Below, piece after piece: positions 23,013-57,840 of a DNA stretch of 64,000 nt (within the stretch, counting starts at the first letter, position 1; each line of letters starts with the position of its first letter). Under the pieces are notes generated by a model, which worked only from the letters and a program-made list of their open reading frames with translations, searched no databases and was not told the DNA's origin. Origin of the DNA: Diphasiastrum complanatum. Taxonomy: Eukaryota; Streptophyta; Lycopodiopsida; Lycopodiales; Lycopodiaceae. The position numbers and the translations under genes are program-made. Location: positions 99,762,651-99,826,650 of the forward strand of contig CM055092.1 of NCBI GenBank assembly GCA_029204225.1, given 5' to 3'.

Positions 23013-23025
23013 TGGTATTAGAGCT
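23013..23025 (+). other. primer binding site, initiator tRNA-Met type
   Basis: TGGTATTAGAGCT follows the 5' LTR with no spacer. The usual plant Copia site is TGGTATCAGAGC, so one C-to-T change is present. Confidence 0.85.
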
Positions 23026-23612
23026 TGTGTTTCAGGTTATGAAGGAGAAAATCAGATCTATCAATGATTTGGTGAAGATATCAAGTCTAGAGCATGCTAG
23101 AGAGGATTCTACACCAAAATCGGATTTTTTGCTTTTGTAGATTGGATCTTTTGTAGATCAAAACACTAAATAGGTCAATATACTTGTTCAATTCCATTTT
23201 TTGAATTCACATGCTGGACTTGTCCAATTTTTTGATCATTGGTTCAGCCTAAGTGGTGGCTTATAGATTGCATATCAAATTTTCAGCATTTGCATGTAGA
23301 TTTGGAATAGTCAATTTTTTGTGATTTTGTCAAAACCCTAATTTTGATTGGATCTCTAGCTAGTGAAATTGCTGGACCTCATTTGAGTGTGTTTCAATCT
23401 TAGAAAGTGGCAAAAGTCATTATATTGAGGATAGATCATAGGGTGATCAAGATTCCATGATTCTATGTGTTGATTTGCTTGGATAAGTGCTAGAAGAGAA
23501 TTTGTGAGATAGTTTCAAATCTTGGTGATTTCTTTTGAAAGTATTTGTTGTTGTTCAAAGGAGTTCTTTGTGCATTGAAGCAGGTTGAAAGAGAAGATCA
23601 GGTCATTGCTAC

Positions 23613-24430
23613 ATGGCAATCTCAATTGGAGTCATGTTGGAAGCCAATGATAGGCTTACCTCAAGTAGCTATTCATTATAGAAAGTGAGGATGGAGTCAC
23701 TTCTTGAGATGAATGATGTTTTGAATATTGTTGTAGGTTTGGAGGAGTGACCAGCAACACAACAAGATCAATTGAGGATGACAAGAGGTCCAAGAAAGCT
23801 CTACACATGATAAAGATGAATGTTACCAATGAACTTCTCAAGGAAGTTGGTAAGTGCACATCATCTTTGAAAGCTTGGAATTCATTGAAGAAGCTTTATG
23901 AATCCAAGTCTACTTCTAGAGTGTTGACTCTAAGAAGGCATTTCTTGTTTTCAAAAGAATGAAGAAAGTCCAAGTACTTTTGTTTTGAGAATGAAAGCAT
24001 TGAATGATGAGTTAGCTTGCATAGATGAAAGCTTAAGGAAGGAGAGCTTATTCAAGTGATTCTTAATGGCTTGTTGGATGCTCATGCTAACATTGTTCAA
24101 AGTATTTCTATTCAAAAGACTTTGCCAAGTTTGATGGATCTTCAAGAGATCTTGATCAATGAGGAATATAGGCTTCAAGCAAGAGGTGGATCTACATCGA
24201 CACTTCAAGAGGATGCTATGTTTACAAAGGGCAAATTCAAGGGCAAAACCAAAAGCAAGTGGTCTAAAGGGCAAGATCAAGTGGATGCTTCTTCAAGTGG
24301 CAAAAAGAAGGATAGATCAAAGCTCAAGTGCTTCTATTGTGGCATCAAATGACACTTTGCAAGTGAGTGCTACAAGAAGAAGAGAGATCAAGGAGCCAAG
24401 CAAGGTAATCTTACTCTTGATGAGGATGGT
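23613..24430 (+). pseudogene. Copia gag (nucleocapsid), inactivated
   Basis: Homologous along its length to the open gag at 46022-46840. It starts MAISIGVMLEANDRLTSS and hits a TAG where the sister has a Thr-Trp codon pair. Later it keeps KKALHMIKMNVTNELLKEVG and SRVLTLRRHF in one frame. A frameshift follows near 23960. The zinc knuckle at about 24331-24372 reads CFYCGIK-stop-HFASEC: the glycine of the CCHC knuckle is replaced by TGA. Gag would package element RNA in cytoplasmic particles. Confidence 0.9.
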
Positions 24431-27552: not shown

Positions 27553-28202
27553 TGTGAAAGATTCAACTAGTTTCATCACATTTTGCAATATTTCCATATT
27601 TGGCATATTGAGGCCAAAACTTGTTTTAGACTTAGAGGTTGACTTTTCAAAGTTCATTAGTCTAAATTTCATTTGAATAAACACTTTTTGAAAGTGTGGG
27701 AAAGATAGAATGCGAGTTTGAGTAGATTCAATTTGAATAAGTTGGGTACATTGAATCTAGACCCAAAATTGGTAGGGTTAGCATTTTGGTGGGAAAGCCA
27801 AGTAGCCAAATAGGGTTTGGACCTTTTATAAAAGGATGTAACTCGTGGAGAGAGTCATCTTCTCTCTTCTCTATCTCATTTCATGCTTATACATGGTTCT
27901 CTTGGGTTCTACTATCCATTGGTGCACTATCTTGGTGATTGCTTGCAATTCTATGTGTAGAATGATCTATATTTGCTATTTTTGGATCCACACGTGTGAA
28001 ATATAGTAGCTTGCTGGTTTTTTACGGACAGCAATAGTACATAATCATTTCATTCAAGTTTGATGAAGTTCTATTAGTGTTTGCATCCCAAATTGTGTGT
28101 AGATGCTGATTTTTCTACATTGGTGAAATTGGTAGTATATTTCTCTTTCTAACCAAAGATCATTCAAGTACATTGGATCTTAAGGATCTGAAATCTTTCA
28201 CA
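27553..28202 (+). repeat. 3' LTR of nested Copia element
   Basis: 650 bp, same ends as the 5' LTR and about 14 substitutions from it. Its TATA-like box starts near 27826 and its CACACGTGTG palindrome is at 27989-27998. Followed by the GTCTA duplication. Confidence 0.95.
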
Positions 28203-34579: not shown

Positions 34580-35690
34580 TTACAAAGAGGATATGCCACA
34601 TAAAACCCAGTTGGACTAGGAGAAGGCATTATCTTGCACCAATTCCACTAAGGAAGACATCATGGGTATCAGGATATTTATCGTGTATCATTATTGGACC
34701 TCAACCCACAAACTGGATGCATTCAGAACTATATCTACAAGATTTCAATATTCATGATCGCCAAAAATGTAATTGTAAGTTCAAAAATTGTTGGGATCTA
34801 TATTTTAACATTCATGCTTTGAAAACTTGTAGAAATCATATCAGTTATCAGATATGTATTTCACTCTTGCAGATTTATATCCATCCAACATAAGTGAATG
34901 GGAGCCAACACAATCCCTAGCAGGTATTTTGGATGTGATTCATTTGGATATTGGAAAATTACAATACAGAGGAAGAACTTCTAAGGAGCTTTGCAGATAG
35001 TGGTATATTCTTCTATGAGTCCAAGTACATTCCAGATATGCGTGGAGGTTTTGAAAAGCTTGAAGATATCCCACTGCCACATTTTAGAAGTGATGAATGG
35101 CTTGCACCTGATAGTCTTGTATTAGATTTAAAAAACTCAATGAAAGCGAGCACTGGATCAAAAGTCAATAGATTAAGTTGGTTTCTGTCCTTATATGTAT
35201 TTGTTGATTTCTTTTCAAATGCAAATGTTCGTAGAACACCAACATTATTTGTTTGTAAGGATGTGCCAGATGACACTCTTTCAGATCTGATGGATGTGGG
35301 TTGGGAATACAAGGCAGTTGGAGATATTGAATGTAGAATTAAGATATCTTCTATGATATTTCGTTATTGCATTGCGAGACAAATGCTTAGTCTTACATTC
35401 AATTACCAGAGATGAAAACGAATAAGTGGGATCTGGATTCCACTACGTCAAGACCTTCAAATGGATGGTCACACAGATCGAAAAGAAGTCCACATTTTCA
35501 ACAATGAAGATATGATAACTACAATTGAAGTGGAGGATCATTGGACCTTAAGTTATATCAAACAAGAGTTGGTCTTAATGCACTATGAAATTCTACCTGA
35601 ACACTTCAGATTCAATATCAATGGAAAGCTAGTAGCATTTTTTTGTGATTTGCAAATCAATCAATCATTATATATGTAACTCTTCAGAAA
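34580..35690 (+). pseudogene. gene S of the unassigned element; ubiquitin-like C terminus
   Basis: I do not recognise the whole protein. A 154-residue frame from 34951 (ENYNTEEELLRSF to FNYQR) has mixed, protein-like composition. After a stop, a second frame from 35461 has VHIFNNEDMITTIEVE, DHWTLSYIKQELV and LPEHFRFNINGKLV. Its spacing resembles a ubiquitin-like fold: first strands, helix with IK, then a hydrophobic FxINGK strand. 34870-34950 follows an acceptor-like CTTGCAG and may be an upstream exon. The gene converges on R (minus strand), which has Ulp1-peptidase features; Ulp1 enzymes act on ubiquitin-like proteins. The ubiquitin-like call is by pattern only. Confidence 0.4.
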
Positions 35691-36200
35691 ATAACCAAAT
35701 TAATAGGCTATTTATCTTTCATGCAGAAAAAAGACAAAAAAAACACAACACTCTGCAAGGATCTTCCTACAGACATCAACATTGTACAAATTGATATCTG
35801 TATTCAATAAAATATCGTCCAAATCTGGGAATTTTGTACAACTCTGCAAATAATTCTATATTTACTATATGTCGATATTTCACCGTATGTGTATATTTCT
35901 ATATCAGTATGAAACTATGTCTATCTATTTAGCTTGGATATTTACAAATTCCCTAGTCTCATTTAGAATCTGAACATCATCTGGCTTAGATGGCCCAGCA
36001 AGAGTCTTTGGTCTAGCTGTTGACCTGGCCAATAGACTAAAGATGAGCTCATATCGAAACCTATACACTTCGCCAGCTGTGTAATCACTGAGGAAAAACT
36101 ACAATTAACAATATATTAGATGAATATTTATAATAAACAATATATCACATGAAGATTAAAGAGAAAGAAAACTAAATAGCTCATCTTTGAAATATCAACA
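35691..36200. other. 3' flanks of S and R, no gene
   Basis: AT-rich sequence between the 3' ends of S (plus) and R (minus). The last R-like coding trace (LQEDVDISKM) is near 36215-36180. Confidence 0.4.
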
Positions 36201-36204
36201 TCCT

Positions 36205-37109
36205 CCTGAAGAATGTATCACTCAAAAATAAATTTTGCATTATAAAGAGTACACCATGCACAACTAAATGAGTCATTTTCCTGGAGTGTATGCAGTACAT
36301 TCAACTGATTAACAATGGGAGGAAGAAACTGACACTAAACAAAGATGATAAACAAAAAAATGCAAGAAGTGTTCAATGATTACCTCAATGCTTACAATTT
36401 CACATATCCTTGCCACAACATTCTCTATGGGAAAATATTTACAAATAGTTGGCAGCAGCGAGTCAATATCTTTATGTGTGTTACGGGTGGAATTCATCTT
36501 CACACAAAAAAGATTTACTACATTATTTGCAGTTCTTTTTATAGAGACTATAGTCAAGCTCCAGTGATCACTGCAAAACCAAAGAAGCATTCTATTAGAT
36601 ATATGATACATTGATTACAAGTAAAGATATAGACATACTTGGTATGATAGCATCAACAAAATCTTCATAGCTGGTGCGTATGCACCAAGGAGACAATGTG
36701 ACAAAGTGTTGTTGTCGTCCTTGATGGCCTCCAAAAAAAAATGGCTGAGAAGAGACATTTCTTTCATTGAACCCCTCACAATATCAAATTGCAGTAGGGG
36801 GAAACCTGCCTCTATCATTGGATTGCTGATAGAAGCCCTTCTATCTTTCATCTGAATACAGTCAAGGATTCTAAAGTTAAGAGAAAAACCAATTTCTTTT
36901 ATTTGGAAGAGAATTGGCATGCTGATATTATCTATAGCATCCGATATATTTTTCTCAAATTTTAAATAATCGTAACAATCCAAATATAATATAGGAGTGA
37001 GATTAATGGGAAGAGGGGGGAGAGGAGCAGTATTCACAATAGAGGGGTTGTCCAAAATTTTTGTGGCTGAATCGACCATAGTATCTAAGGCAAGTAGGTT
37101 TACAATCAC
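36205..37109 (-). pseudogene. gene R, left copy: Ulp1/C48-like cysteine peptidase
   Basis: Exon 1 (37109-36639) carries ISNPMIEAGFPLL and ends ILLMLSYQ before a GTATGT donor. Intron 36571-36638. Exon 2 starts DHWSLTIVSIK, contains NSTRNTHKDIDSLLPTICKYF and ends ICEI before a GTAAGC donor. Intron 36305-36395. Exon 3 reads LNVLHTLQENDSFSCAWCTLYNAKFIFE-stop. The order His (DHW), Asp-position (here Asn-Ser), Gln (LQEND) and Cys (SCAW) follows the Ulp1/SUMO-protease family, which cleaves ubiquitin-like tags. Asn at the Asp position suggests loss of activity or a by-eye misalignment. Ulp1 domains are known passengers of plant transposons. The partial right copy at 44700-44934 has VFIIPYIQ, closer to the family's FIIP..HW lead-in. 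Confidence 0.55.
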
Positions 37110-37344
37110 AACATCTCCAAATGAGGAATGTTGGAGTTATCTCCAGATGAGGAATGTTGGAGTATCGGTTCTGTGTGTGGTTATATTAACAATGATCCAA
37201 GGAGAATAAACAAGCTCGCAAAGGTACGATATGTACGGATGTGTCAGTCTTGTGCGAGGGTCAACAAAGCATAGAAGCGATATATGACTAAAATCCAAAG
37301 AAAAAAAAGTGAAAATGACCTCCACATTCGCGAACTTGTGTCCT
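37110..37344 (-). other. probable 5' end of gene R, left copy
   Basis: A minus-strand 62-codon frame (37137-37325) is uncertain. A CTCCA(A/G)ATGAGGAATGTTGGAGT motif is directly repeated at about 37110-37160. No secure start codon for R could be chosen. Confidence 0.3.
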
Positions 37345-37917
37345 CAAATTTCGCACGTGTGGTCACACATGCGAGTTCCGTACAACTCAATCAATGATTG
37401 CCATGTGGCATTCACATGTGGGTATCTAGTGGCCCAATGATACCTCAATACGTTCCATGTATAGCCCAATTAGTTCTTGACACCTGGCAACTATATGGCT
37501 TCGCTCGTGTGATCGTTCTGAGCCAATTGGAGGATAACTTGTGGATAGTTGACCGTTTGACTTGCACGTGTGAAACAACTATAAAGGGCATGATCCCTAA
37601 AAGTTTTTTTGTCTTTCTTTCTCGGTTTTTGGTCATATCGGTTCTATGCACGCCTGACTTGTAGTCTCTATGAACTAGAACACGACATGTGCACAAGAGG
37701 GATATCTAACCCCTTATTCCATAAGAGGATTTTCACTTTTTTTTTTCTTAGGATTTTTATCACATATCACTTCTCTGCGCACCTCATTTTCTCCCTCATT
37801 GTCTCGTCTCTTTGTGTGCGCACAAGAGCGATACTACGACTGTACATATGCACGTCAGGCATAGTGTACTCCTTTTTTCACGGATAGTCCCCTCTCGCAC
37901 AGAACCGATACTAGGCA
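37345..37917. promoter_or_regulatory. divergent promoter region between R(-) and P(+), left copy
   Basis: Two CACGTG hexamers at 37354-37359 and 37565-37570, plus CACATGTG variants near 37411 and 37685. An ACTATAAAGGG box near 37578-37588 points toward P. The right copy has the same divergent arrangement with more G-boxes. Confidence 0.45.
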
Positions 37918-39454
37918 ATGGCTTCCTTGTCTATGATCCTAGTCGAGACTCCCTTGTTGTCTAGATTTCTCATTGGGTTTGGTATAGATGAGCGCATAGA
38001 GTACTTCAAGTCCCTCTTTCAGCCTTTCTTACATGTGTTCAGTATAGCACAACAGAGTCCGGATGTTTTTTATGACCAATATGTCAGATTTAGAGATATA
38101 ATCAGTATCCATCTAATCTCATTGGGTGATTTGTCATTTATGCATTTCACTAACCTTGTACATAGTTTTTCACATTATAAGCAGCAACTAGATAGGATGT
38201 ATACTAAATGTTTTGACCAATTTAAGAATTCCACTAAATGTAAGTTTTGTAAACGAAAATGTCGTTATCTTGACTGTCACACCAGATTTGTGTTTTTCCT
38301 GTTAGTACAGATCCCAAAAGAGTCAGATACATCAATTCCTAGAACTGAGATCCCTTCATCCTCCACTACTAAACATTCCATAAAGGATATCAATCATTTC
38401 TTGGTGGATACTCCTAATAAAGACACTAACTAGATGAGTATAGATACTAATAAGTTGAGAGATGCTTTCATTGGCTCTAATGCCAATATTGAGAAAAAAA
38501 ATTGTTGATGTACATTCTAAATGCTTTTTGGATTCACCAAAATAAAATATAACGAAGATGTGTATATCACAACTGCAGATCTATGTGTTTTTTTCGATTA
38601 TTGGGAGGATGAGGTGCTTTGTCTATTGTCAAGCACCATTTTTGAGCTCTTTGACATTGTTAATTTTGTAACCGAAGAGTTGGTGTCGAGCATTGACTAT
38701 GATGATGAAGAAGGTATTCTGACAAGTGAGGAATGTTTGTCCATGGCTTTGGCAAATGTTCATGATCACGGACAAAGTTTGCCATCTAAAGAGAAATTTA
38801 TTTCCTTTCAGGCCCAGCTGGGATTCCCTCGTCCATCGGTTATGAAATTTGCAGATGACTCTTCTTCAATAGGTGGTCACAATATGGATCATCCCGATCT
38901 AGTTGCGGCTAATGATGATGAATGCGTAAGTTTAGCAGTTTTACTGTAAGTTTATCAGATGTATGTGTTCTATATTAAATTTTATAAACTAAGAACTCCA
39001 ATTTTGTTATGCAGAATACATTTGTGATCGATGACTTTGCTACTCGTCGAGGGAGCTTCAGACAACATTCATCATCTTTCCATATGGATAGTGGTCTCGG
39101 CCACTACTTGAGGCACTTTCAGAAAAATAAAATTTGTGTTGTTCATTCCAAACTCAGTCCAGTTGGAGATACTCTCATAATGGCTGAAAAAGCCTTATCT
39201 TATTATCTAGGTGGACATAAATTTGCTAAAGCAAATAAAATAATCTCTGTGAAGAGCTCATATGTTTGAACATATTATGATTTGTAGATGGGAATGTACC
39301 ACTAAAGAGTTCCCATTATTCATTGTATGCAACAAATATAGAATTGAGTGGTAACAAGGACAATGCACATCTTCTGGATGCTTATGCAAGTAGAGAGTTA
39401 CTGCATGATAGCACAACAATTGGACAAGATGAAATATCAAATTTCACTGAATGA
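37918..39454 (+). pseudogene. gene P, left copy (unrecognised, spliced)
   Basis: Function unknown. Starts MASLSMILVETPLLSRFLIG at 37918 (right copy MASSSTSSIYYRALGSF at 43872). A Cys cluster KCKFCKRKCRYLDC near 38240-38280 could bind zinc. After a stop at 38431 the coding trace resumes at 38521, with acidic text and LPSKEKFISFQAQLG. A GTAAGT...TTATGCAG intron of 89 bp (38926-39014) follows, then GHYLRHFQKNKICVVHSK, TLIMAEKALSYYLGGHKF. After another stop it ends ISNFTE-stop at 39452-39454. The right copy matches at LPSEEEF, HYLKHFVNNKICILHK and TLIMAIKTLSYFAQGHK, with an intron at the same place. Two copies with a shared intron argue for a once-functional gene. Confidence 0.6.
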
Positions 39455-39512
39455 AACTTTGTATATATTGAATATTATGAATACAATTTACATTTGTAGC
39501 ATCTCTTTAGGT

Positions 39513-40310
39513 CTAAATTTTTAGCTTCTTTGTTGCAATGAATTTGCAAGCTTTTCTAAATTTGTCGTAATTTGAAGATCTGTCAAATTTGAACTTTGTG
39601 GTAGAACCACTGAAATAATTGACAAATATAGTTTTGTTTTTCATTGGTTCCTCCATGTTGTGTATTTCGATAAAATGTTGTCCGTGCTTGCCAATCTGAC
39701 TTCTCCATCTCTTGTGATGACCAGACACTTAGGCTTCCACATGTGTTTTCAAAAAATGATGTATGATCTCTTAGTATGTGGTGCTACACATGTCAAAATC
39801 GTAATGTTAGTCTTATGCTTGGATCAAAATATATAGTTGAATTGAAAGCTGTTTTGAGCATGCATACTAACCATGTAATGAGTGATGTGATCTTCTCCCC
39901 ATGCTTTTGACACTGCATCAAAAAAATCGACACAAGTCTTTTATAGAGCCCTCTTATCGATATCAGCAAATTTGTTTTTTCTTAATATTTTAATCATACT
40001 GTCAAACTTCCTCCATACATCAACTTTCAATAATCTAGATTTGCTGGTCACCCTAAGTCTTGAGTGGCAGCAACGATATCTTTCTAGACTAAGTGTTGAA
40101 TATTAGAAGCCTTACCAGTATGGTTTGATAGGAATCGACATGCCTTTGCTCCTCCTATGCTTAGCTTAGTAGGCATATTTCCTAACTTTCCTGAAAGCTT
40201 TTCATCTTTTTGTATTTTGACATGTCCTTTATGAAGTCCTGCTTTCAATAAAACATCTTCTAATCAACAAATATCTTCCTTCACTGATGATGTTGGCTTA
40301 CATTAGATGA
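39513..40310 (-). pseudogene. gene Q, left copy, 5' truncated (unrecognised, spliced)
   Basis: Read on the minus strand from about 40300: LLKAGLHKGHVKIQKDEKLS, then ITSLITW..M and a GTTAGT...GTGTAG intron of 88 bp (39784-39871). Then HHILRDHTSFFE, GSLSVWSSQEMEKSDWQAR and TTFYRNTQHGGTN. Nearly every block is repeated in the right copy at 41850-42480. Compared with that copy this one lacks the N-terminal 1.2 kb. Several stops. Function unknown; the pattern SQ..EKS.WQAR..F....HGG is a useful search string. Confidence 0.6.
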
Positions 40311-40586
40311 GCTACAAACATCAAAAGGGCCGTCTAAGAAATGCCATGTAGGACAAAAAAAAATGCCGGATTTTAAAACTCCGACAGACTTTTAGCTCCG
40401 GTTTAGCCTAACCTTACTAGTAATGTGTAGTTAACATGACACGATTATGACGCATGCAACTGCAACTTCAAGAACCTATGACGCTCATTAACTAACTTTT
40501 CCAAATTTGAAAATGAGATTGTGTCCCTCGTTTTAACTAGCGAGAGAATAAACATAGAATCTCGGGTATGCCATGGATGAAGAATA
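40311..40586. other. junction between the two inverted unit copies
   Basis: About 275 bp without coding signal between the truncated 5' end of Q(-) and the first Q(+) frame. Contains an A9 tract and a TCCGACAGA..TTAGCTCCGG stretch. No retroelement signal was recognised. Confidence 0.4.
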
Positions 40587-42590
40587 GTGTCTATTTTCTT
40601 TTTGGTCTGTCAACTGATGTCTGCAAAGATGTCTCAGTTTCATCTACACATTGTTCTCCCTACCGAGAATGCTCCGATAGCTAAAAGAGGAGTAGTGAAA
40701 GAATCCACAGTTTCTCCACTTGATATGATCGCTCACAGAATCAAAGAAAGAATTATGATTTGTGAAGTTTGTATCCATTGGATCCGAGCTCGATGCAAGC
40801 TCCACAATTCCAATCCATCACACAGTTAGTAAAGTTTTTGTGTGACAGAGAAAATGGTTTACTGGGTTATTGTGAAAGATTGGCGACTTATGGTGTTGCA
40901 AACTCGGTTCAGTAAATACAGAGTTTAGAATGTATGTTAAATGGTTTGCTTGCTGACTATAGAAAAAAAGAGACCGCATTATTACAACCAAAAGAAGATA
41001 ATGCCAGTATATTTAAGAGGCTTTTGGACAATTATATGTAAGAAAATTTTCCATTCCTCGTCCTTTTCAGATAAAATCGGAGAGAGATGTATTGAATAAG
41101 GGTATGCAAAATGTCATTGGAATCCCTTTTCACATCAATGAGATTTACAATTCAAAGTCTTGAAATTTGTCATATAATTCTACCAACAACTTATTTGTGG
41201 ATTTGAATCATTTATTGAGATTGATAGTGAAATTCTAGAATATTACAAGTGTTAGTATGATCAAACTTATTCTGGTGGTCAAGCTAGATGAATCGAAAGT
41301 TATAAAAGGACAAAAGTTGGAAAGAGTATGTATTACTCTCATGAATGGAGCATTGAGCAATGCAACAAACTCAAGGGATCTCAACTTCAATGTGCAATCA
41401 TAAACAACATATGGTGGCTAGCATGTTTTCAGGTAAAAAAATGGCTGTTATTCATGTGCAATTTCTTTTGGTAATTGTTTTGAATACATAAAAACTTGTT
41501 ATTCCATATGTTGAACAGGTTATCAAGGAGGATCACGATTTTCTTTCCTGGATTTTTAGCAGAACAAGTTATCTTGATATCATAAAGGATCATATGAATG
41601 ACAAAGTACTTATTGTTTCTGAAAGAGGTATGTATGAGATCATCAAATGACATTTCAAGGAACACAAGAGTTTCAAGAGATATTGAAGATCCCAACTAGA
41701 AACCAGTACTACCAATCCCTTTACAAAATGTGCATATTTGCACACTTCATGGAGAGGTGAGGATCATAGAGAAATTAATATATCTTCATATCTTGGTGCA
41801 TGGAATACTAAGCCAAAGTCAGCATCAAAACAAGCAATCGCTCGACTAGAGGAAGTGTTGTCAAAAGCAGGCCTTCATAAAGGCCATGTTAAAATACAAA
41901 AAGATGAAAAGCTTTCGGGAAAAACAGGAAACGTACCCAATAAACCTAGCATAAGAGGAGTCAAAGCTCGTCAATTTTTATCAAATCATTCTAAAGAGTC
42001 GTCTAAGATCCAGTGCTCGGTTTGGAAAGATGTTATTTCTGCAGCAGAAGACTTTGAAGATAAAGGAACAACAAGGGTAAAGAAGGTTGAAGTTTGGAAA
42101 AAGCTCCATAGTATGATTGAAGTGCTTAGAAAAGACACATTTTCATATGCAGATGCACTCCTATTGGAGAAAACAACAATAGAGTTTGTAGATGCAGTTC
42201 GGGTGGCTTGGGGCTCAGATCACATCACCCACTACATGGTAAGATACATTTGAACAATGTCTTACAATTTTATAATTTTAGTATAACTTGCTTGATAGAT
42301 TCTAAGCAATGCATAAATCTTTGATATTGCAGCACATACTAAGGCATCATGCATCATTTTTTGCAAAAAAGTATGGCAGTTTGAGTATATGGTCCTCACA
42401 AGGAATGGAGAAATCACATTGGCAGGCAAGAGTAGCATTTTCATCAAAATACACAACATGGTGGAACATCCTCAAAAAATAGTTACATCATTTAGCTATT
42501 CCAATGGTTTTATAGATGACCTCAAGTTCGATACACAACAAGATCAACTGAATATCACAGATTCAAAAAAGCATGTAAATTTATAAGCCA
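40587..42590 (+). pseudogene. gene Q, right copy (unrecognised, three or more exons)
   Basis: The first frame (40587-40829) includes MSQFHLHIVLPTENAPIAKR and HRIKERIMICEVCIHWIRAR. Next comes helix-rich GYCERLATYGVANSVQ and MLNGLLADYRKKETALL, with frame breaks. An exon ends IINNIWWLACFQ before GTAAAA (intron about 41434-41518, acceptor TTGAACAG). Then VIKEDHDFLSWIFSRTSYL, then 41738-42238 (KQAIARLEEVLSKAGLHKGH, KTGNVPNKPSIRGVKARQFL, WGSDHITHYM). Intron 42239-42332. Last exon: HILRHHASFFAKKYGSLSIW, SSQGMEKSHWQAR. The intron before HILRHH is at the same place in the left copy. No catalytic motif that I can name. Confidence 0.6.
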
Positions 42591-42619
42591 AAATTAGATT
42601 GATGGGATTCAATAAAGAT

Positions 42620-43872
42620 CAAATGTGTGTGATCAAAAATTCTCAAATTTTGCATACATTAAATGGAAAAGAGTACAATCATGTTTTTTCATTGTCTCTA
42701 AGAAAAATTTTTGCTGTGTGGTCATGAAGAGACTTTTTCCTATCATACGGGTCCAAAAATCAAACCTTTTGCTCAGATCTATATATCCTGATAGAATTGC
42801 TAGAGCATATAATCTCATAGGAACATTTTCTGGCACGTAATTGAACACTTTGAGAGCAACATCTCTTTTGACAAAAATGATTCTATATGTATTTTTTGGA
42901 TATTTATGCCCTTGGGCAAAATAAGATAGGGTTTTGATGGCCATGATCAAGGTCCCCACATTCACAAAAAAATCTTTTATGAAGAATACAAATTTTGTTA
43001 TTTACAAAATGTTTCAAATAATGAGCTAATGAGGCATTCTTTTGTCTCCAGCCTTCTCTCTCTCTCAATACTCCATGTTTGCTAGCTAAGGCATCAACGT
43101 CAACGATATCCTACAACACATAATCAAGTGTTAGTCAAACTAGCAGATCAATCATCAGTTACACGTTAAATAGTAAAGGATTTTTGTGAGAAGGTGTACT
43201 TACCAAATCCTCCTCATCAGCTTGGATCATACCAACAGCTTCTAAATTGCGACCAACAATAATGGTGGATTGCTGGTCAGGTGGAATAGTATATATGGGA
43301 GGTGGCGGATACTTTTTCTGAAAATCCAAAAACTCCTCCTCACTCGGCATATTAGCCTCATATGCCCTACTCTCAGATAGTATCATTTGAAGGGCATCTA
43401 TGCTACTTGCCCATTCTACCTGGTCCTCACAATCGATGCCATCTATGAGGTCGTCATCATCAAAGTCAATAAAATCATCCTTGACATAAGAGATAATATC
43501 TCATCTTCTTTGAGATCCATTACGTCTCCGATGTCGCTAATGGTCAAGAATGCAATGTCGTCCATATGGTACATAGGGAGGTCCATCAGGAATCTGCTCT
43601 GGTCAATCTTGCTCACGGTAGGTAAGGGAGAGATAGACAGAGAACGAGCCTTGGCAAGATCATATTGTTGTGCTTGCATAGCCTCCTCTACATCTCAAAA
43701 AACCTCATCAGTAATGGAAACTTCTAAAGATGTGCTCAATAACAAATCTCTCTATGTCAAACTGAAAATCAAAATAGGACAAAAAATGGGCCTGTCTATT
43801 GCTAACCTCAACATCAACAAGGAAAGAACCAAGAGCTCTATAATAGATCGAACTAGTAGAAGAAGAGGCCAT
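42620..43872 (-). pseudogene. gene P, right copy (unrecognised, spliced)
   Basis: Starts MASSSTSSIYYRALGSF at 43872, then frame breaks. MQAQQYDLAKARSLSIS (43679) leads to MDLKEDEILSLMS, then LPSEEEF-like MPSEEEFLDFQKKYPPPP. The exon ends ADEEDL at a GTAAGT donor; a 93-bp intron (43111-43203) ends TGTTGTAG; the next exon opens DIVDVDALASKHGV and reads HYLKHFVNNKICILHK. A frameshift leads to GTLIMAIKTLSYFAQGHKYP and NYVPENVPMRLYALAILSG. The order and intron match the left copy at 37918-39454, which lies in inverted orientation. Function unknown. Confidence 0.6.
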
Positions 43873-44099
43873 ATCGATATGAGGCACCGGTTATCAAGGG
43901 GACATAAACGGTGTAATCATGGGCGCGTGATGGAGATATGCAATGTACACAATTCCAAATATCAGAACCAGACACCGGGGAAGCAGTGCAACTATGGAAC
44001 TGTCTATTGGGTGCGTGGTAGCGATATTGTATGTATTGATTTTGGAGGAGGTCGGTTTTTTGGACTCAATATGCAAAACTGAATTCCAAAAATGACACT
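43873..44099. other. 5' flank of gene P, right copy
   Basis: Upstream of the P start on the minus strand. A TATATATATA run at 44099-44110 could serve as TATA element for P. Confidence 0.35.
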
Positions 44100-44460
44100 C
44101 ATATATATAGTCTAATACAGAGCATCTGAACCATACACGTGTTTCGGTAACGTGCGGTCAAAATTGCCACACGTGTGGAAACGATGGCCAAATCATTTGC
44201 ATGACACGTGTACACTTCGGATCCTGACATGTGTCCTCGCACATGCATGCCAACTGTATGATCGTATGAGCCGGTCATCCCGTGATGCGTGTGTGGCCTA
44301 GATCTTGACACGTGTATGCCAGTCGTATGATCGTACGAACCGCTGATGTCTTGACATGTGACAACTCTGTGTGATGACACGTGTGACCACACGTGCGGGG
44401 AGTGGAGGTGTCACATCACACGTGTGAATATGATGGGATGTTCTATAGGTATAAAAGGAC
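44100..44460. promoter_or_regulatory. divergent promoter region with seven G-boxes, right copy
   Basis: CACGTG hexamers at 44136, 44170, 44205, 44309, 44378, 44390 and 44419 (start positions). Two of them are extended palindromes (CACACGTGTG at 44168 and 44417). A direct repeat around GTATGATCGTA occurs near 44257 and 44327. GTATAAAAGG near 44450 points right toward R; the TATATATATA run near 44100 points left toward P. CACGTG is the classical binding site of plant bZIP/bHLH factors. Chance would give well under one such site in 300 bp. Confidence 0.65.
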
Positions 44461-44699
44461 ATTTTCGGCTCATATCGGATTTCTTCGTTCCCTAGCTCTC
44501 CTCAGTTTTCTTCGTTCACTTCCACTCCTCGCTATACGCATATCGCTATCACGCACCCAAAAACTCACATACCAGTACAGCTTCCCCCTCCGTGCGACGT
44601 GGCGATACGCCATCTGCCATATCGCCATCACGAGCCTCCCCTGTCGGATATGCACTTTTCATTTCTTTTTGTCTAAGTTCAATTAATTATGTAAATCAC
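44461..44699. other. leader of gene R, right copy
   Basis: Follows the TATA-like box. A pyrimidine-rich segment with two copies of a CCCTAGCTCTCC/CACTTCCACTCC type stretch. No secure start codon. Confidence 0.3.
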
Positions 44700-44934
44700 A
44701 TAAATAAAGACTTTTGTAATGCCCCAAAGGAGAAGACAACAGATATATCAGATCCAGTTGTGGAGGCTGGTTTGATGTATTTTGTAAATACATGTAAATG
44801 CGATGATACTAAGGACATTGGAGTTGTGCTATTCTTTTTTGCACACAACCTTCATAGTCCAACTAAGGTGACGAAGTATCTTCTCCATAAAACCTCGGAG
44901 ACCAAAGTCTTTATTATTCCATACATTCAGTAAA
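44700..44934 (+). pseudogene. gene R, right copy, 3' truncated
   Basis: Reads KEKTTDISDPVVEAGLMYFV, then DDTKDIGVVLFFF and KVFIIPYIQ, ending where Copia LTR sequence begins (about 44932). It aligns with ISNPMIEAGFPLLQF to ILLMLSYQ of the left copy. The catalytic exons are absent. FIIPYIQ fits the Ulp1 lead-in to the catalytic His better than the left copy does. Confidence 0.5.
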
Positions 44935-45457
44935 AACTTTTGGAAAGTGTGGGAAAGTTGGTAGTTGAGTTTGAGAGAGATTCAAATTTGAACTTTGGGT
45001 ACATTGAATCTAGACCTAAAAATAGTAGGGTTTACATTTTGGAGGGAAAGCCAAGTGGCCAAATAGGGTTTGGAAACTCTATAAAAGGATGTAACTCGTG
45101 GAAAGACACATCTTCTCTTTTCTCTCTCTCATTTCATCATTATACATGGTTCTCTTTGGGTTCTACTACTCATTGGTGCACTATCTGGGTGTTATTTTGC
45201 AATCTTGTGTGTAGAATGCTCATTTATTGCTATTTTCGGTTCCACACGTGTGAAATACAGTAGGGTACTGTAATTGTATGGACAGCAAACATATTTTATG
45301 TTTTGGTTCATGTTTGATCAATATCTCTTAGGGTTTGCATCTCATTTTGTATGTAGATGCTGATTTTTCTACATTGGCAGGATTGTTGGTTTGCTCCTTA
45401 TTGTAGCCAAAGATTTGGCACATGGATTAGATCTTGAATGATCTGAAATCCTTCACA
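44933..45457 (+). repeat. 5'-truncated LTR
   Basis: Aligns with 22490-23012: GTACATTGAATCTAGACC, CTATAAAAGGATGTAACTC (near 45079) and CACACGTGTG at 45243-45252, ending CTTCACA. More diverged from the 650-bp LTRs than they are from one another. Confidence 0.85.
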
Positions 45458-45470
45458 TGGTATCAGAGCT
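45458..45470 (+). other. primer binding site
   Basis: TGGTATCAGAGCT, a perfect match to the common plant Copia site, abutting the LTR end. Confidence 0.9.
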
Positions 45471-46021
45471 ATTGTGTTTCATGTTATGAAAGGATCAGCC
45501 ATCTTTAGCAGGGATTTTGGAGGAGTTACCAATGCTAGAGCATGCTAGATTGATCTCTACTAAAAAATCAGCATTTTTGCATGTATAGAATTGATCTTTT
45601 GTAGGTCAAAACTCAATATAGGGTTATATACTTGATCAATTCTGATTTCACACCTGGATTACTGGAATTAGATGATTTTTGGTGCATTAGAAAGGTCTCA
45701 TTAGAGTCTACGAGAAGATATATCAAGTTTCTAGAAATTGTATGTAGAATTTGAGATATTCAATTTTTTGTGATTTTGTCAAAACCCTAATTTTGACTGG
45801 ATCTCTAGTTTGTGAGATTACTGAACTTCATTAGATTGAAGATAGATCATAGGTTGATCAAGATTTCACTATTCTATGTGCTGATTTTCTAGCTAGAAGT
45901 GCTAGAAGATATTTGAGAGGTTCCATATGTTTGTGATTTCTTCTTGAGTTAATTTGTTGACATTCAAGAGAGTGCTTTGTGCATTGGAACAGGTTGAAAG
46001 AGAAGATCAGGTCACTTCAAC

Positions 46022-46993
46022 ATGGCTACAAGTGGTGGATTTATGTTGGAGAGCAATGATAGGCTTACCTCAATCAACTATTCTACTTGGAAGGTGAGGA
46101 TGGAGTCCTTATTGGAGATGAATGAGTTGATGGAGATTGTTGCAGGTGTGGAGGAGAGGCCTCAAGCAACTCAATATCAAATGAGGTATGACAAGAGAGC
46201 AAAGAAAGCTCTACACATGATTAAGATGAATGTTACCAATGAACTTCTCAAGGAAGTTGGTAAGTGCACATCATCTTTGGAGGCTTGGGAAGCTTTGAAA
46301 AAGCTTTATAGATCCAAGCCTACATCAAGAGTGCTTACTCTTAGGAGGCAAATCTTTCAAAGTTTGCAAAAGAAGGAAGAGAGTACTCATGATTTTGTTT
46401 TAAGGGTTAAAGCATTCAATGATGAGTTAGCATGTATTGATGAAATCATTAAGGAGGTAGAACTTGTTCAAGTTATACTTAATGGCTTGTTGGATGATCA
46501 TGCTAATCTTGTTCAAAGTTTTGCTATTCAAAAGACTTTGCCAAGTATTGTGGATTTGCAAGAGATCTTGGTGAATGAGGAGTATAGGCTTCAATCAAGA
46601 GGAGGTGGATCTACATCGACATCTCATTATGAAGAGGATGCTATGTTCATCAAAGGCAACTTCAAGGGCAAAGACAAAGGCAAGTGGTCTAAAGGGCAAG
46701 ATCAAGGTGAGACTTCTTCTTTTGGCAAAAAGAATGATAAGTCTAAGTTGAAATGCTTTTATTGTGGAATCAAAGGGCATTTTGCTAATGAATGTTTGAA
46801 GAAGCAAAGAGATAACAAAAAGGATGGAATGGAAAAGGAGATTGGTCTCAACTTTCCAAAGTTACCTTTTAGCATCAATAAGATTGGTGGATCTTATGAA
46901 AAGTCTAAAAAGCTTCCTTATGTTAGATCTAGGTCAAGATCTTCTTTGAAGCCCACACCGGCCTTTTTTTGTCATTTTAACATATCTTTGTAA
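46022..46993 (+). pseudogene. Copia gag, open, fused to an integrase remnant by deletion
   Basis: An open frame of 323 codons from ATG 46022. Gag part: SNDRLTSINYSTWKVRMESL, ALHMIKMNVTNELLKEVG, LKKLYRSKPTSRVLTLRRQ and an intact CCHC knuckle CFYCGIKGHFANEC (46753-46794). After KKQRDNKKDG the frame runs into IGLNFPKL..KKLPYVRSRSRSS, equivalent to the segment before VHSDIHG in the nested copy (about 24970-25090). So about 570 bp including the protease are missing. Open gag suggests fewer lesions here than in the sister copy, yet the element is useless without pol. The last residues (PTPAFFCHF) are unrelated. Confidence 0.9.
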
Positions 46994-47325: not shown

Positions 47326-47600
47326 TGTGAAAATGTTTTATTCTTGGTGTTTGTGGTCGGTGGGCTAGGGATTGAACCTAGGACCTCCCCCATTCCAGTG
47401 GGGTGCTCTACCACTAACCTACCCGTCCATTTGTGTTCCAAGAGTGTTGTGCAAGGGCTATAGCCTTGACACTTTCGAACACTCCCCCTCAAGGCATAGC
47501 CCTTTATAGCTGCTGCCCACCTAAACCACACCCACAACCATGGCTCTGATACCATGTGAAAGTTTACACTTGGTGTGCATGGTCGGGCTTACAAGTTGAA
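47326..47600 (-). mobile_element. TRIM-like miniature LTR element, minus orientation
   Basis: Read on the minus strand: an LTR end GTAAACTTTCACA (plus 47555-47567), a perfect primer site TGGTATCAGAGC (47543-47554), about 50 bp, a purine tract CCTTGAGGGGGAG (47482-47494), then a complete second LTR of 156 bp starting TGTTCGAAAG and ending TTTTCACA (47326-47481). The two LTR ends align (GCCC..GACCA, CACACCAAG, TTTCACA), but the upstream LTR is cut short after about 40 bp (near 47600). The whole internal region is only about 73 bp and codes for nothing, as in TRIM elements. The complete LTR contains a tRNA-like sequence (separate entry). Confidence 0.7.
47354..47428 (-). ncRNA. tRNA-like sequence inside the TRIM LTR
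   Basis: On the minus strand, 75 nt with an A-box TAGGTTAGTGG (47411-47421), a B-box GGTTCAATCCC (47368-47378), a perfect 5-bp T-arm (CTAGG/CCTAG) with a 7-nt loop, and an anticodon-like arm CCCC/GGGG with GGA in the loop. The acceptor arm (GGACGGG against CCCACCG) and D-stem pair poorly, so it is not a working tRNA gene. It could still act as an internal RNA polymerase III promoter. Confidence 0.6.
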
Positions 47601-53429: not shown

Positions 53430-54235
53430 AAGTGAAATTTGAATTCTTCTTCATCATTCCAGCCAAAGCAGAACCTGTTCTACAAATATTGTAAGAGGAT
53501 TGGCCATCTCATCAAGAATTGCAGAATACTCAAGTACAACAATGAAAAGAAGATGCAGTCCCAACAACAAGCAAATGTTGTCTCAACCAGTTACTCGATC
53601 TAGCATGAAGAGAAAGATGAGGCTACATTTTTGACCAAAGTCGAAGAACAACAGGATATCGATTCCTGGTATTTGGACTCAGGTGCAACACAACAGATGA
53701 CTCACTATCAAGACTGGAGCTGTCTATTTGTTGACTATTATTGATGACTTCTCTCAAATGACTGTAACATATTTCTTGAAGAACAAATCCAATACTCTCA
53801 AGTTCTTCATGCAATTCAAGGCATCATCTAAAAAATCGACACCCAAAGAATAATCAAATCTTTTACACTCAGATGCAGAGGGAGTATTTATCTCCAACAA
53901 ACTCAAAGACCTCTACAAGGCAACCAGAATCCAACAACATTTTACAACAAGCTCACCTCAGTTAAATGGTGTAGCTAAATGGAAGACTCAATCACTCATT
54001 GAAAGTGCAAGGAGCATGCTGTTACTACAACATCCTACCTTCAAAATCGATCCATTTCAGAGGCCCTGAATGGCAAGACACTTTATCAGGTGTGGACAAG
54101 ATCGAAGCCATTACTCAACCATATCATAGTGTTTGGATGTTTTGCTTTCAGTCAGATCACTACTTGTGAACCTCAAGGGAGGGTTACTTACAATCTTTAG
54201 GATCTTGAACTTACTAACATTACTTTTACATAAAA
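53430..54235 (+). pseudogene. Copia pol fragment A: knuckle, protease, integrase
   Basis: Knuckle trace YCKRIGHLIKNC, protease SWYLDSGATQQMTHY (intact DSGA), then at 53716 a jump to the integrase core DFSQMTVTYFLKNKSN and later ALNGKTLYQVWTRSKPLLNH and VFGCFAFSQI. The segment between protease and integrase present in fragment B (56290-56805) is deleted here. From 53716 it is nearly identical to 56806 onward, the start of the tandem duplication. Multiple stops. Confidence 0.8.
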
Positions 54236-54339
54236 CAAGTCTTGAAAAAACTTAAATGAAATAAAATTAAACTTGAAATAATGAATCCAAAAATTCATTC
54301 ACAAAATCATTCACATGCAACAAAAGCATTTAGATTTGT

Positions 54340-54560
54340 TGCTTTCCTAGAGTGGATTAGTTTTTTTTTTCTTGTTTGTGGATTAATGTAGGAACCAGCA
54401 TTCAAGTAAACTAAATAGGCTAGAAATGTGGTATAAATCTTGCATATCCTCCAACATTCTAGTTTTTGAAGTTCTTGGGATGTCCAAGAATCAAAACACT
54501 GGTTGGTTTCTTGATTCTTGTTTTAGCTTTGTGGATTAATGAGCATGGTAACAAACAAGA
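54340..54560 (+). mobile_element. LTR-like repeat, truncated (left unit)
   Basis: Matches 57370-57620 and the reverse complement of part of 13090-13640. Follows pol fragment A, so a 3' LTR position is likely. Its second half is deleted. Confidence 0.55.
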
Positions 54561-54567
54561 AACAGTT

Positions 54568-54759
54568 TTAAAGAAGAAGCAAGGAAATAACCAACAGATC
54601 CTCTGGAGTAGGGGATCTGTCATTTGAAACCGTTGCCACTTGAACTCCAATGCATTCTACATCCCGAAGAACTGCAACATTGTCCACGCTCAGATCCATG
54701 CAAACAAACTCCCAATCTCTCGCCACATATGAGTTTCTACGAACTGGATAGAGCCACAT
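54568..54759 (-). CDS. unrecognised minus-strand frame, left unit
   Basis: 63 codons starting MWLYPVRRNSYVARDWEF. The right unit has the same frame at 57849-58124 (91 codons), extended by a different C terminus. Conservation between recent duplicates does not prove coding. No family recognised. Confidence 0.15.
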   Translation of the reverse strand: MWLYPVRRNSYVARDWEFVCMDLSVDNVAVLRDVECIGVQVATVSNDRSPTPEDLLVISLLLL

Positions 54760-54899
54760 ATATGGCTACATCATTGCCCATATCCACTGACTGATACACT
54801 CACAAATCTGTTGGCTGTCTCATTGTTAGCAAACGCACTAACAGAGCTAGATTTTCTTCAACACAAGCTCATGCTCCTCCCATCCCCTCACGCTTCCAT

Positions 54900-55830
54900 T
54901 CTCAATTGGAGCCCCTCAGTGAAATCTCAACCGAAGCACCTATATCAAATCTCATCCCGAATGATCTATTAAATCTCAACTGACACACTCTGTCAAATAT
55001 CAACCAATGCACTCTGTTAAATCTCAACCGGAGCCCATTGTTCAGTTTTCAACCGGAGCGCTCGTACAAATCTCAACTAAAGAGATTCTATCACGTCTCA
55101 ACTGACGGGGTTCCTCACCATTGCCAAACCACCTTCCACGTCCATCTGCCATTGAACCACAACAGCCGCATTCCATCACAAACAGATCACCTTCCACCTC
55201 CATCCGTCATTGAATCGCATCAGACCGCATTCCATCGCAACCATCTGCATTCACTCGTTGTGACCGCATTCCATCCCAACCGACCATGTACACCCATTGC
55301 GACCGCATTCCATCCCAACCAACCCCATACACCTGTTGCGACTGCATTCCATCCCAATCGACCGCATTCAACTGTTACCCCGTATTTCTCCCAGATAGAC
55401 CTCCACGCTCAACCCTTAAAGCCCCACACTACTTCAGCTGCCCTTCATGCTCCATTTCCTTCAAATCTCAACCGATGTCCAGTGTTAAATCTCAACCGAC
55501 AGCCAGAGTTAAATCTCAACCGACGGCCGGTGTCAAATCTCAACCAACGGCTAGTGTCAAATCTCAACCGACGGCCAGTGTCAAATCTCAATCTACGGCC
55601 AGTGTTAAATCTTAGCCGATAGCCAGTGTCAAATCTCACGGCCATTGATAAATCTCAACTGACGGCCACTTTCAACCTCTTAACCGGAGCCCACTATTCA
55701 AATCTCAACCGAAGAGACTATATCAAATCTCAACCAAAGAGATTCTATCAAATCTCGACCAAAGGGGTCCCCCACCATCTCAACCGGACCAAATCTAGGC
55801 CAGATCACAAAACTTTCAAGCAACATCCTT
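54900..55830. repeat. AAATCTCAACCG-type repeat region, left unit
   Basis: Irregular copies of AAATCTCAACCGA(G/C) through the region, with CGCATTCCATCCCAACC repeats at about 55150-55370 and the regular 24-bp array inside it. Long frames across it are repeat-encoded. Confidence 0.8.
55463..55675. repeat. 24-bp minisatellite array, left unit
   Basis: About nine units built from AAATCTCAACCGACGG and CCAGTGTT. Being a multiple of three, it yields an octapeptide repeat (KSQPTASV) in one frame. One unit near 55635 is shortened to 19 bp. Confidence 0.9.
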
Positions 55831-56285
55831 GATTGCCATTTCGACCGAACTACTTGTCCCCCAAGCGACACCGCATTTTGTTTGCATCCGAGTCCCTCTA
55901 TCTCTAGTTGCATCTAATGCCCTCTGACTTTGTTGCATTTTGTTTGCATCTGATTCCCTCAATCTCCATTTGCATCTAATGCCCTCTGACTCTATTTGCC
56001 TCTGATGCCTCTACACCTGTTTTCATCCGACACCCATTTGCATCCCATTTATATTTTTTGAATCGATGGTACATCCAATAGCTTGAATCGATGATCTATA
56101 TCAGACGCTGTTTGGAGTCATATCTGATGATCCACACAAATCGCCAACTGCACCACCATAAATCATAGCAACTGCAACGAGCCTCCAACTATCGCATTCC
56201 ACCACAAATAGGCCACATCTACCCTTGAATTGAAACAGACCGCATTCATCCGCAGTCGCAAATAAACCGCATTCATCCACACACA
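55831..56285. repeat. GCATCTAATGCCC / GCATTCATCCGCA repeats
   Basis: Short repeats: TTTGCATCTAATGCCCTCTG three times near 55910-56000 and CGCATTCATCC(G/A)CA near 56230-56280. Same in the right unit. No gene. Confidence 0.6.
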
Positions 56286-57365
56286 ACTCATTCCATTGCG
56301 GGTGAAGGAACAGTCAGAATCAAATTCCCGAAAGGTGATGTAATGTTTTTGTCCAATGTTCTTCACATTCCAAATCTGACCAAAAACTTGCTCTTAGTTA
56401 GCAAAATCACAGATTCAGGTCAGAGGGTCGAATTCGATAGACAAGACTGCACTATTGTTGACGAATCTAGAAATTTTTTTGCTTTTAGTAGAAGATGTGG
56501 AAATTTGCACATACTCAGTCACTCCTATTCTACAAGTAGTCAAGCTCTTATTACTACTACTTCTAGTTCAAATGATATGTCATAGATTAGGCCATTTAAA
56601 TTCTAGTTGTAATCAACAAATGTTAAAACAAAACTTAGTACAGAATTTACCCTTCATTAGCAAATCCGATACTCCATATATAAGCTGTATTTCCAGCAAG
56701 CATGTTAGAAGTTCAATCGTTTCAGATCCAGAATGTATTTCTAAAAATTTGCTAGATCTTGTACACATGGACATTTGTGGTCCTATGTAGACTAGTTCCA
56801 CAAGAGGAGCTGTCTATTTGTTGACTATTATTGATGACTTCTCTCAAAGGACTGTAACATATTTCTTGAAGAACAAATCCAATACTCTCAAGTTCTTCAT
56901 GCAGTTCAAGACATCATCAAAAAAATCGACCCATAGAAGAATCAAAGCTTTTACACTTAGATGCAGAGGGAGTATTTATCTCCACCAAACTCAAAGACTT
57001 CTACAAGGCAACCGGAATACAACAACATTTTACAACAAGCTCACCTAGAGTTAAATGGTGTAACTAAATGGAAGACTCAGTCACTCATTGAAAGTGCAAG
57101 GAGCATGCTGGCCCATGCATCTCTTCCAAAGAAGTTCTAGGCAGAAGTTGTTACTACAATAGCCTACCTTCAAAATCGATCCATTTCAGAGGCCCTGAAT
57201 GGCAAGACACTTTATCAGGTGTGGACAAGATCGAAGCCATTACTCAACCATATCAGAGTGTTTGGATGTTTTGCTTTCAGTCAGATCACTACTTGTGAAC
57301 CTCAAGGGAGAGTTACTTACAATCTTTAGGATCTGGAACTTACTAACTTTACTTTTACATAAAAC
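56286..57365 (+). pseudogene. Copia pol fragment B: protease region to integrase
   Basis: GEGTVRIKF and LHIPNLTKNLLLVSKI (after the protease), RLGHLNSSCNQQML (GAG-pre-integrase), DLVHMDICGPM (first Asp of the DDE core), IIDDFSQRTVTYFL, then broken ERKTQS-like text and ALNGKTLYQVWTRSKP. Ends near 57365, followed by an LTR-like repeat. The second acidic motif is degraded and frames shift several times. Closest to fragment A and to 47190-47325. Confidence 0.85.
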
Positions 57366-57369
57366 AACA

Positions 57370-57840
57370 TGCAACAAAAGCATTTAGATTTGTTGCTTTC
57401 CTAGAGTGGATTAGTTTTTTTTTCTTGTTTGTGGATTAATGTAGGAACCGGCATTCAAGTAAACTAAATAGGCTAGAAATGTGGTAAAAAATTTGCATAT
57501 CCTCCAACATTCTAGTTTTTGATGTTCTTGGGATGTCCTTGAATCAAAAACACTGGTTGGTTTCTTGATTCTTGGACTTCTAAAATGCTATAGATTAGTT
57601 CTTGTTTCAGCTTTGTGGATTAATGCAAGTGTAGCTCAGTTCTAGTAAAGTGTAGGATCTGATTCAGTTCGTTTTTAGAGTAGGTAGCTGTAGAATCAAT
57701 TGAATGTTCATTTGGGCTACATGCTGATCTGTAAATGAATGCTCATGTCTTGCATCTCTGTTTGAATGTGAGTCTTTTCAAGAGAGAATGACCTTGAGTT
57801 GTACTCTGATAGGCAGAACATTATACTACAAAGATATTTA
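57370..57840 (+). mobile_element. LTR-like repeat (right unit)
   Basis: Fullest plus-strand copy: CTAGAGTGGATTAG, GGATTAATGTAGGAACC, CAATTGAATGTTCATTTGGGC, CAAGAGAGAATGACC. Matches the reverse complement of 13150-13640. No clean TG...CA ends and no primer site seen. Confidence 0.6.

Follow-up and report, generated by a model that had tools for sequence, protein, structure and literature searches.

A probable DNA transposon family of Diphasiastrum complanatum with a histone H3-like gene running toward a Ulp1/C48-like domain

Introduction

DNA transposons of the CMCT clade (EnSpm/CACTA, Mirage, Chapaev, Transib, Plavaka, ESTA and Lanisha; RAG1) are characterized by catalytic D, D and E residues with a C(2)C and H(3-4)H pattern (2C + 3H) between the second D and the E, by 5'-CA..TG-3' termini and by a target-site duplication of 2-5 bp, and some members carry extra genes that act on chromatin (PMC12730594). 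Spy transposons (PHIS superfamily), which are related to PIF/Harbinger, prefer AAATTT and insert without a target-site duplication (PMC4482050). Here, we analyse a mobile element with four genes, S, R, P and Q, which is present as two copies in a stretch of 64,000 nt from Diphasiastrum complanatum (GCA_029204225.1, contig CM055092.1, positions 99,762,651-99,826,650 of the forward strand; this whole stretch is called the window below). The element is most likely a DNA transposon family of about 9 kb, distantly of the CACTA/Transib/RAG1 (CMCT) type, with R on board.

Results and discussion

A histone H3-like gene running toward a Ulp1/C48-like domain

The R gene had been left without identity by an earlier sequence-only reading of the window. 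In better-preserved copies of the element it is an H3-like histone with a C48-like part, the histone-bearing part not being visible in the window. Indeed, the open reading frame (ORF) to the left of P has a histone H3 fold in these copies (PF00125; 1.2e-16 in locus L020, 3.2e-20 in L030 and 4.1e-16 in L029), and unchanged single ORFs also match PF00125 in L048 (2.7e-26) and L031 (2.3e-20). The histones tested score between 59.8 and 101 bits against this model, for a cut-off of 26.4. When they were used to search the PDB, the 60 best of 175, 172 and 176 sequences were all of the H3 type, with Cnp1 among them in one search. In L010, the histone, a basic linker and part of the protease-like region lie in a single frame that contains two stops; joined with the next two exons, it matches both the histone (3e-21) and Peptidase_C48 (PF02902; 6.7e-7, 29.8 bits for a cut-off of 20.7), and joined L031 and L010 pieces match Peptidase_C48 at 23.6 bits. 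Moreover, L048 (332 amino acids, complete from MART) and L031 (283 amino acids, from mid-histone) hold the histone, the linker and the middle part in one open frame. L048 is of the R type: it begins with MARTESTARATT, and the R linker is kept, as judged by eye. Of the catalytic His, Asp, Gln and Cys of Ulp1/C48, three can be read by eye, His (DHWSL), Gln (SPQQ) and Cys (SFSCGW), and the place of the Asp reads Asn. By sequence, R encodes an H3-like histone whose frame leads toward a Ulp1/C48-like domain. The histone exon is found in eight of the first 18 oriented loci (L016 and L018 being near-identical) and also in L031.

The histone lies within an abundant mobile unit

The genome searched comprises 1.745 Gb in 5,176 contigs and is that of a green plant, as shown by 37 matches to the chlorophyll a/b-binding family, which all exceed the cut-off (2.8e-49 for the best). 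Its candidate counts come from a loose first pass, in which only the scored candidates are certain. P DNA gave 1,875 candidate places (40 scored, all matching with E below 1e-300) and the Q main exon 13,280 (141 scored, all with E below 1e-148, many of them stop-free). The histone query gave 7,435 candidates, 150 of them scored, with listed matches all at E <= 5.7e-22 and open frames of up to 416 amino acids. The family is very abundant in this genome.

The order of the unit is S(+) R(-) P(+) Q(-). Terminal repeats were found at unrelated flanks, with six complete right ends (...CTAATG) and three left ends (CATTAG...) among 19 oriented loci. In L031, the left terminal inverted repeat (TIR) is followed by S, R, P and Q in order, the right end being cut off. 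One copy, on contig C14, has perfect 35-bp TIRs (CATTAGAGGAGTTCTCAATATCAAAAAGACCCTTT) ending at 27617941 and 27627324, for a total of 9,384 bp. Its ends alone were read, and its content rests on genome-search matches between the TIRs, namely Q at 27619923 (no stop) and the histone at 27623700 (one stop). Finally, the 141 Q and 150 listed histone matches form 13 pairs within 10 kb, where 0.24 would be expected by chance. In each of the 13, Q and the histone share a strand, and the histone stands 2.35-3.81 kb away, always on the same side; since two of them (contig C2) are near-identical copies, the 13 are not quite independent. These pairs of fixed geometry, together with the TIR-bounded C14 copy and its Q and histone matches, place the histone within the mobile unit.

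We may wonder whether R, S, P and Q instead stem from separate mobile families with a habit of inserting close together. Copies are indeed heavily rearranged: no R was found between the two ends of L028, and in L010 the S and R look like subfamily A and the P like subfamily B, as if subfamilies swapped modules. Yet strand and side are fixed in 13/13 Q-histone pairs, the C14 copy has both ends, Q and histone matches between them and an empty site, and L031 shows the left TIR and all four genes in order, which makes such a neighbourhood of families highly improbable. As a separate observation, L009 contains two P copies in tandem, in the same orientation.

Insertion without a target-site duplication

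The C14 copy is inserted in a Gypsy pol gene. Its flanks, joined without duplication, restore an unbroken frame and match 40/40 scored Gypsy copies, with an equal span in 34. L028 is a 4.5-kb deletion derivative that has both ends and is inserted in a Copia gene; its joined flanks give one open frame across the junction and match 40/40 scored Copia copies, with an equal span in 27. In these two copies, which are those comparable with empty sites, the target-site duplication is 0 bp, the comparison being one of span lengths and not of base-level alignments. The target sites read ACTAAAA/GAAGGTC and TTACCTCT/TGTAGTTA. The left end of L016 is truncated and gives no help on target duplication, and none of five further copies probed for ends has both (C12 and C1 have the right end only, C19 and C21 the left end only, and C9 neither).

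The lack of a target-site duplication suggests unstaggered joining. The element may thus insert as Spy elements do, which also leave no duplication (PMC4482050). Joining in Spy would presumably be unstaggered too. Duplication-free insertion by a CMCT-type transposase would be mechanistically unusual.

Q, the putative transposase

In the better-preserved loci L029 and L031, Q comprises an N-terminal exon, a KLDESEIVKG exon, a main exon that holds GDLKTLK..CLYC..TLHAE and a further exon with HILRDH..GSLSVWSSQGMEKSHWQAR; L029 itself has VDLKTLK in place of GDLKTLK. We counted motif columns over 18 sequences (17 loci and the window), each site over the sequences that cover it. The catalytic residues are kept in 13/14 (D), 9/11 (D) and 14/16 (E) sequences, and those of the zinc pattern (CLYC, LH, HILRDH) in 10/11 (C), 11/11 (C), 10/10 (H), 16/16 (H) and 15/16 (H). 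As judged by motif conservation only, Q is most likely a transposase of the DDE type in which C(2)C and H..H(4)H make up a zinc-binding pattern. It may also resemble the end of RAG1.

P and S match no known family. Reverse transcriptase (RT), RNase H (RH), integrase (IN) or gag were not found in the Pfam search of the S, R, P and Q pieces, such ORFs being seen by eye in the flanks only, and NCBIfam gave nothing meaningful. A Maverick or Helitron type was considered and dropped, with no such domains seen and TIRs present. An integrated large DNA virus would also be multi-gene with alternating orientation and could account for P and S having no known domain; moreover, some large viruses encode histones. 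However, a scan of viral contigs made with Q only gave no relative, and PHROGs, a library of viruses of prokaryotes, gave a single match (E 0.0045 over 25 residues of S). The precise TIR insertions with empty sites also speak against a virus, and a viral origin is extremely unlikely.

Several observations weigh against the reading of the family as a CMCT-like transposon with a histone-protease gene. For R, the C48 match is modest and needs joined exons, and neither the single ORF of L048 nor that of L031 shows histone and C48 together; the place of the C48 Asp reads Asn by eye; and 10 of the first 18 oriented loci are without the histone exon, in part because they are truncated. For Q, mean column conservation is 0.87 across the whole protein, so that the invariance of its motifs is supportive and not decisive; the diverged Q of the window keeps the first D, H..H and E, its second D and C(2)C not being recognisable; and Q matches no Pfam model or PDB chain, profile searches included, which leaves its DDE fold unproven. 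For insertion, the empty-site spans, compared as lengths without base-level alignments, differ by -1 or +1 in 6/40 copies for C14 and by -2 to +4 in 13/40 for L028, and the target site of L020 is single-copy, its flanks being uninformative on target duplication. Furthermore, the CMCT clade is described as making a duplication of 2-5 bp (PMC12730594), whereas the family shows 0 bp in two copies. Because of this missing duplication, we do not file the family as a proven member of the clade.

The sequence-only reading had proposed a large multi-gene mobile or virus-derived element with alternating gene orientation, unlike Copia, Gypsy or CACTA, and its best candidate for an undescribed system. 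The mobile element with alternating orientation is borne out by the gene order and the TIRs, and the exclusion of Copia and Gypsy agrees with the Pfam search of the unit; no sign of a viral origin was found in the Q scan of viral contigs or in PHROGs (viruses of prokaryotes). Its remark that P and Q lack the usual transposase or RT motifs holds for RT but fails for Q, which has the D, D and E of the CMCT type together with C(2)C and three His. Likewise, the exclusion of CACTA is at odds with a distant CACTA/Transib-like signature in Q. It had suggested looking for P and Q in catalogued families, where P indeed has no family and Q no Pfam or PDB match even as a profile, and searching the genome for copies, termini and target duplications; this defined copies and the TIRs CATTAG..CTAATG, with no target-site duplication in the two testable copies. 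The undescribed system was thus partly right: the element is of an ordinary kind, a DNA transposon, and what is undescribed is the variant, with its very unusual histone cargo.

Constraint on the histone

We calculated the ratio of nonsynonymous to synonymous distances (dN/dS) as the median over pairs with a finite synonymous distance above 0.03. It is 0.20 for the histone (36 pairs computed), 0.27 for the rest of R exon 1 (10 pairs), 0.25 for S (28 pairs), 0.42 and 0.36 for Q exons (21 and 41 pairs) and 0.52 for P (120 pairs), values which are rough because many between-subfamily synonymous distances are near saturation. By this measure, the R histone is shown to evolve under constraint.

Transposons often pick up pieces of host genes, and the histone might be a passenger fragment of this kind, caught once by a transposon and copied without function. 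The histone exon is missing in both window copies and stops occur in many genome copies, as would be expected of a passenger. On the other hand, such a fragment would hardly show a histone dN/dS of 0.20 over two subfamilies (many synonymous distances being near saturation), a long stop-free frame in many genome copies or several histone lineages that are 41-54% identical to host H3. In addition, groups A/B and D have the R linker in common (by eye) and group C adjoins an S homologue. We consider the passenger explanation improbable.

Other histone loci and histone lineages

A genome search with PF00125 gave 6,325 candidates, of which 150 were scored. Thirteen loci stand at 163.7-165 bits, the two that were read being canonical H3, and well over 100 more stand at 95-110 bits among those scored. 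All 20 loci that we fetched contain a histone ORF: four are canonical H3 (two of the four being the last exon of an intron-bearing gene), two are of the R type, 11 belong to group C, which has polyproline runs, and three are more distant (L038, L046 and L047). Group C consists of L034-L037, L039-L042, L044, L045, L051 and L052, the last being an enlarged view of one group-C locus. In L052, a 417-amino-acid ORF (4329-5579, -) starts with MARTKQTAR, the first residues of H3 itself, matches PF00125 (6.8e-29) and ends after the histone fold, with no C48; a P-like ORF (pairwise E 8e-7) adjoins it, as does an S homologue (E 3e-16). The non-canonical histones form several lineages. Their source may have been either H3 or centromeric H3: loop 1 is one residue longer in A/B, a CENH3-like feature, and not in C, D, E and F.

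Group C could then be a host family of H3 variants, only the R type belonging to the transposon. Its context was read in L052 only, where no TIR was identified, and its protein ends without C48. Against this, S and P relatives adjoin the histone in L052, and 11 of the 20 fetched loci are of this kind, on several contigs; a host origin of group C therefore seems rather unlikely.

Two nested, broken copies in the window

The window was examined by self-comparison at the DNA and protein levels and by tblastn with family protein queries. Its features, with E values from tblastn unless stated otherwise, are as follows.

34714..35640, + strand: S fragment of the left element (protein of no known family); query joined from L020/L024 pieces, E 4.6e-123 (S1), 82-94% amino-acid identity; recovered in other genome copies too
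37106-36651, 36575-36381 and 36283-36182, - strand: R of the left element, its Ulp1/C48-like part in three exons; E 1.3e-41, 2.0e-20 and 2.8e-13 against R of L031/L010
37136..37269, - strand: site of the missing H3-like R exon 1 (in relatives, L016:2895-3571); alignment break against L016 and L018, histone ORFs there
37918..39442, + strand: P of the left element (protein of no known family, CxxC motif), interrupted by stops and a frameshift; E 3.4e-37, 9.5e-70 and 2.4e-52
39601..39780, - strand: Q of the left element, exon bearing H(4)H and the motif of the catalytic E (HILRDH..SQEMEK); E 2.1e-33
39869..40299, - strand: main exon of the left-element Q, interrupted by the insertion of the second element; tblastn, alignment breaks
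40301..40359, + strand: right-end terminal inverted repeat of the nested second element, CATTAGATGAGCTACAAACATCAAAAGGGCC...; 46/59 against the family right terminus
40745..41002, + strand: Q N-terminal exon of the second element; E 2.4e-14
41053..41400, + strand: Q of the second element, exon holding the first catalytic D (VVKLDESKVIKGQ); E 9e-39, 56%
41516..42241, + strand: main exon of the second-element Q, with no recognisable stretch for the second D and C(2)C; E 3.7e-71, 47%
42333..42513, + strand: Q of the second element, frame-shifted exon bearing H(4)H and the catalytic E (HILRHH..SQGMEK); E 1.8e-16 and 1.3e-10
42759..43476, - strand: P of the second element; E 7.8e-16 and 1.3e-9
44740..44930, + strand: beginning of the protease-like part of R in the second element, which a Copia-like retrotransposon cuts at 44931, with no sign of a histone part; ORF 44496-44933, R match by eye

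P, Q and R each occur twice in inverted order, which agrees with the sequence-only reading of three protein blocks mirrored around 41 kb. The Q pair (40299-39601, -, and 40745-42513, +) has 41/56 identical residues in one stretch (E 5.6e-25), and its DNA matches over 139 bp at 79% identity and over 127 bp at 81%. The P pair (37918-39442, +, and 43476-42759, -) has a best E of 1.7e-11, and in the R pair (37106-36182, -, and approximately 44740-44930, +) the right-hand match was judged by eye only. S is on the left only, also as first read, and no right-hand S was found in the window; this fits the second element being cut at 44931, where the Copia-like retrotransposon starts.

By contrast, the claim that these are two inverted copies of one unit did not survive. 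The alignments of the left copy to family members end at 40299-40304 in 11 of the 19 loci compared, and earlier in the other eight, and the terminal repeat of the second element begins at 40301, with 46/59 positions identical to the family right end (31/59 for the next-best place in the window). The right element is therefore nested in the Q of the left element at 40300/40301. With the two copies belonging to different subfamilies and one nested in the other, an inverted duplication of one unit was dropped. In tblastn with the L029 Q query, the second element shows 56% identity in the exon of the first D, 47% in the main exon and 75% in the best stretch of the E exon.

Both window elements are broken. 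The histone-bearing R exon 1 was found in neither copy, and the window's own ORFs gave no Pfam match because the copies are too broken and lack this exon; nor did the window R exons once joined, which are too degenerate.

Other features of the window were also noted. The Copia-like piece at 44931-46813 and those at 22363-24388 and 27553-28202 belong by eye to one family (77-98% identical). A tRNA-family match (47357-47428, -; 37.1 bits), the sole Rfam match, lies in a retrotransposon-rich stretch. Arrays of CCGGTCGAGAT / TCTCGACCGGAT units occupy 17639-18139 and 19017-19521 in opposite orientations. The segments 53709-56281 and 56801-59713 form a direct duplication of 2.6-2.9 kb (90-97% identical), with abundant tandem repeats of 24, 39 and 62 bp and immediately followed by 18 copies of a 58-bp unit (GCCGCATTCAACCGCAAAC...) at 59783-60838.

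Possible roles of R

Q would most likely move the element by cut and paste, and P and S would serve as accessory factors. The histone part of R would pair with host H4 and enter nucleosomes, or dock on H3 chaperones, at element DNA, and its protease-like part would strip SUMO from chromatin silencers, by which the element would escape silencing or mark its own chromatin. SUMO marks many silencing factors, and it is because a nucleosomal fold is joined to a SUMO-protease-like domain that we put forward, tentatively, an anti-silencing or self-marking role for R, through nucleosomes or H3 chaperones and the deSUMOylation of silencers. It is also conceivable, if doubtful, that the H3 variant and deSUMOylating domain of the element are deposited on its chromatin and block silencing or pick target chromatin (possibly centromeric). 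If this deposition takes place, the host is one where transposon H3-like genes vastly outnumber host H3 genes, with thousands of candidates compared with about a dozen canonical H3 loci found. A genomic parasite would change the nucleosome itself, provided that R is made and incorporated into chromatin. This would bear on how transposons escape silencing, on the origin of H3 variants and on the evolution of centromeric chromatin.

Comparison with known systems

By motif, the family has in common with the CMCT clade the D, D and E residues, C(2)C and three His including H(4)H, as well as 5'-CA..TG-3' termini (CATTAG..CTAATG in the family; PMC12730594). It differs in that Q has no recognisable Pfam or PDB sequence match and in carrying a histone-C48 gene. 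Spy elements are likewise DDE-type cut-and-paste transposons inserting without a target-site duplication (PMC4482050), whereas neither of the two sites read for the family is AAATTT and its Q shows C(2)C / H(4)H.

The TET/JBP fungal transposons (PMC12730594) and the VANC-carrying VANDAL elements (PMC10398659, PMC5735166) are DNA transposons with chromatin-acting cargo, which is thought or shown to counter silencing. Their cargo is an enzyme or an anti-silencing protein, whereas that of the family is a core-histone fold, which belongs to the nucleosome, linked to a protease-like domain. Enzymes that modify chromatin and factors that counter silencing are known as transposon cargo; a core histone was not found described as such in the literature searched, with no report among the matches listed by a mainly open-access search of titles and abstracts, without bioRxiv. 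Finally, the family shares the H3 fold (PF00125) with histone H3 and centromeric H3, at 41-54% identity to host H3 and with an MART..TAR tail in L048 and L052, but its histones are transposon-borne, number thousands of candidates and are joined to a C48-like part or to polyproline tails.

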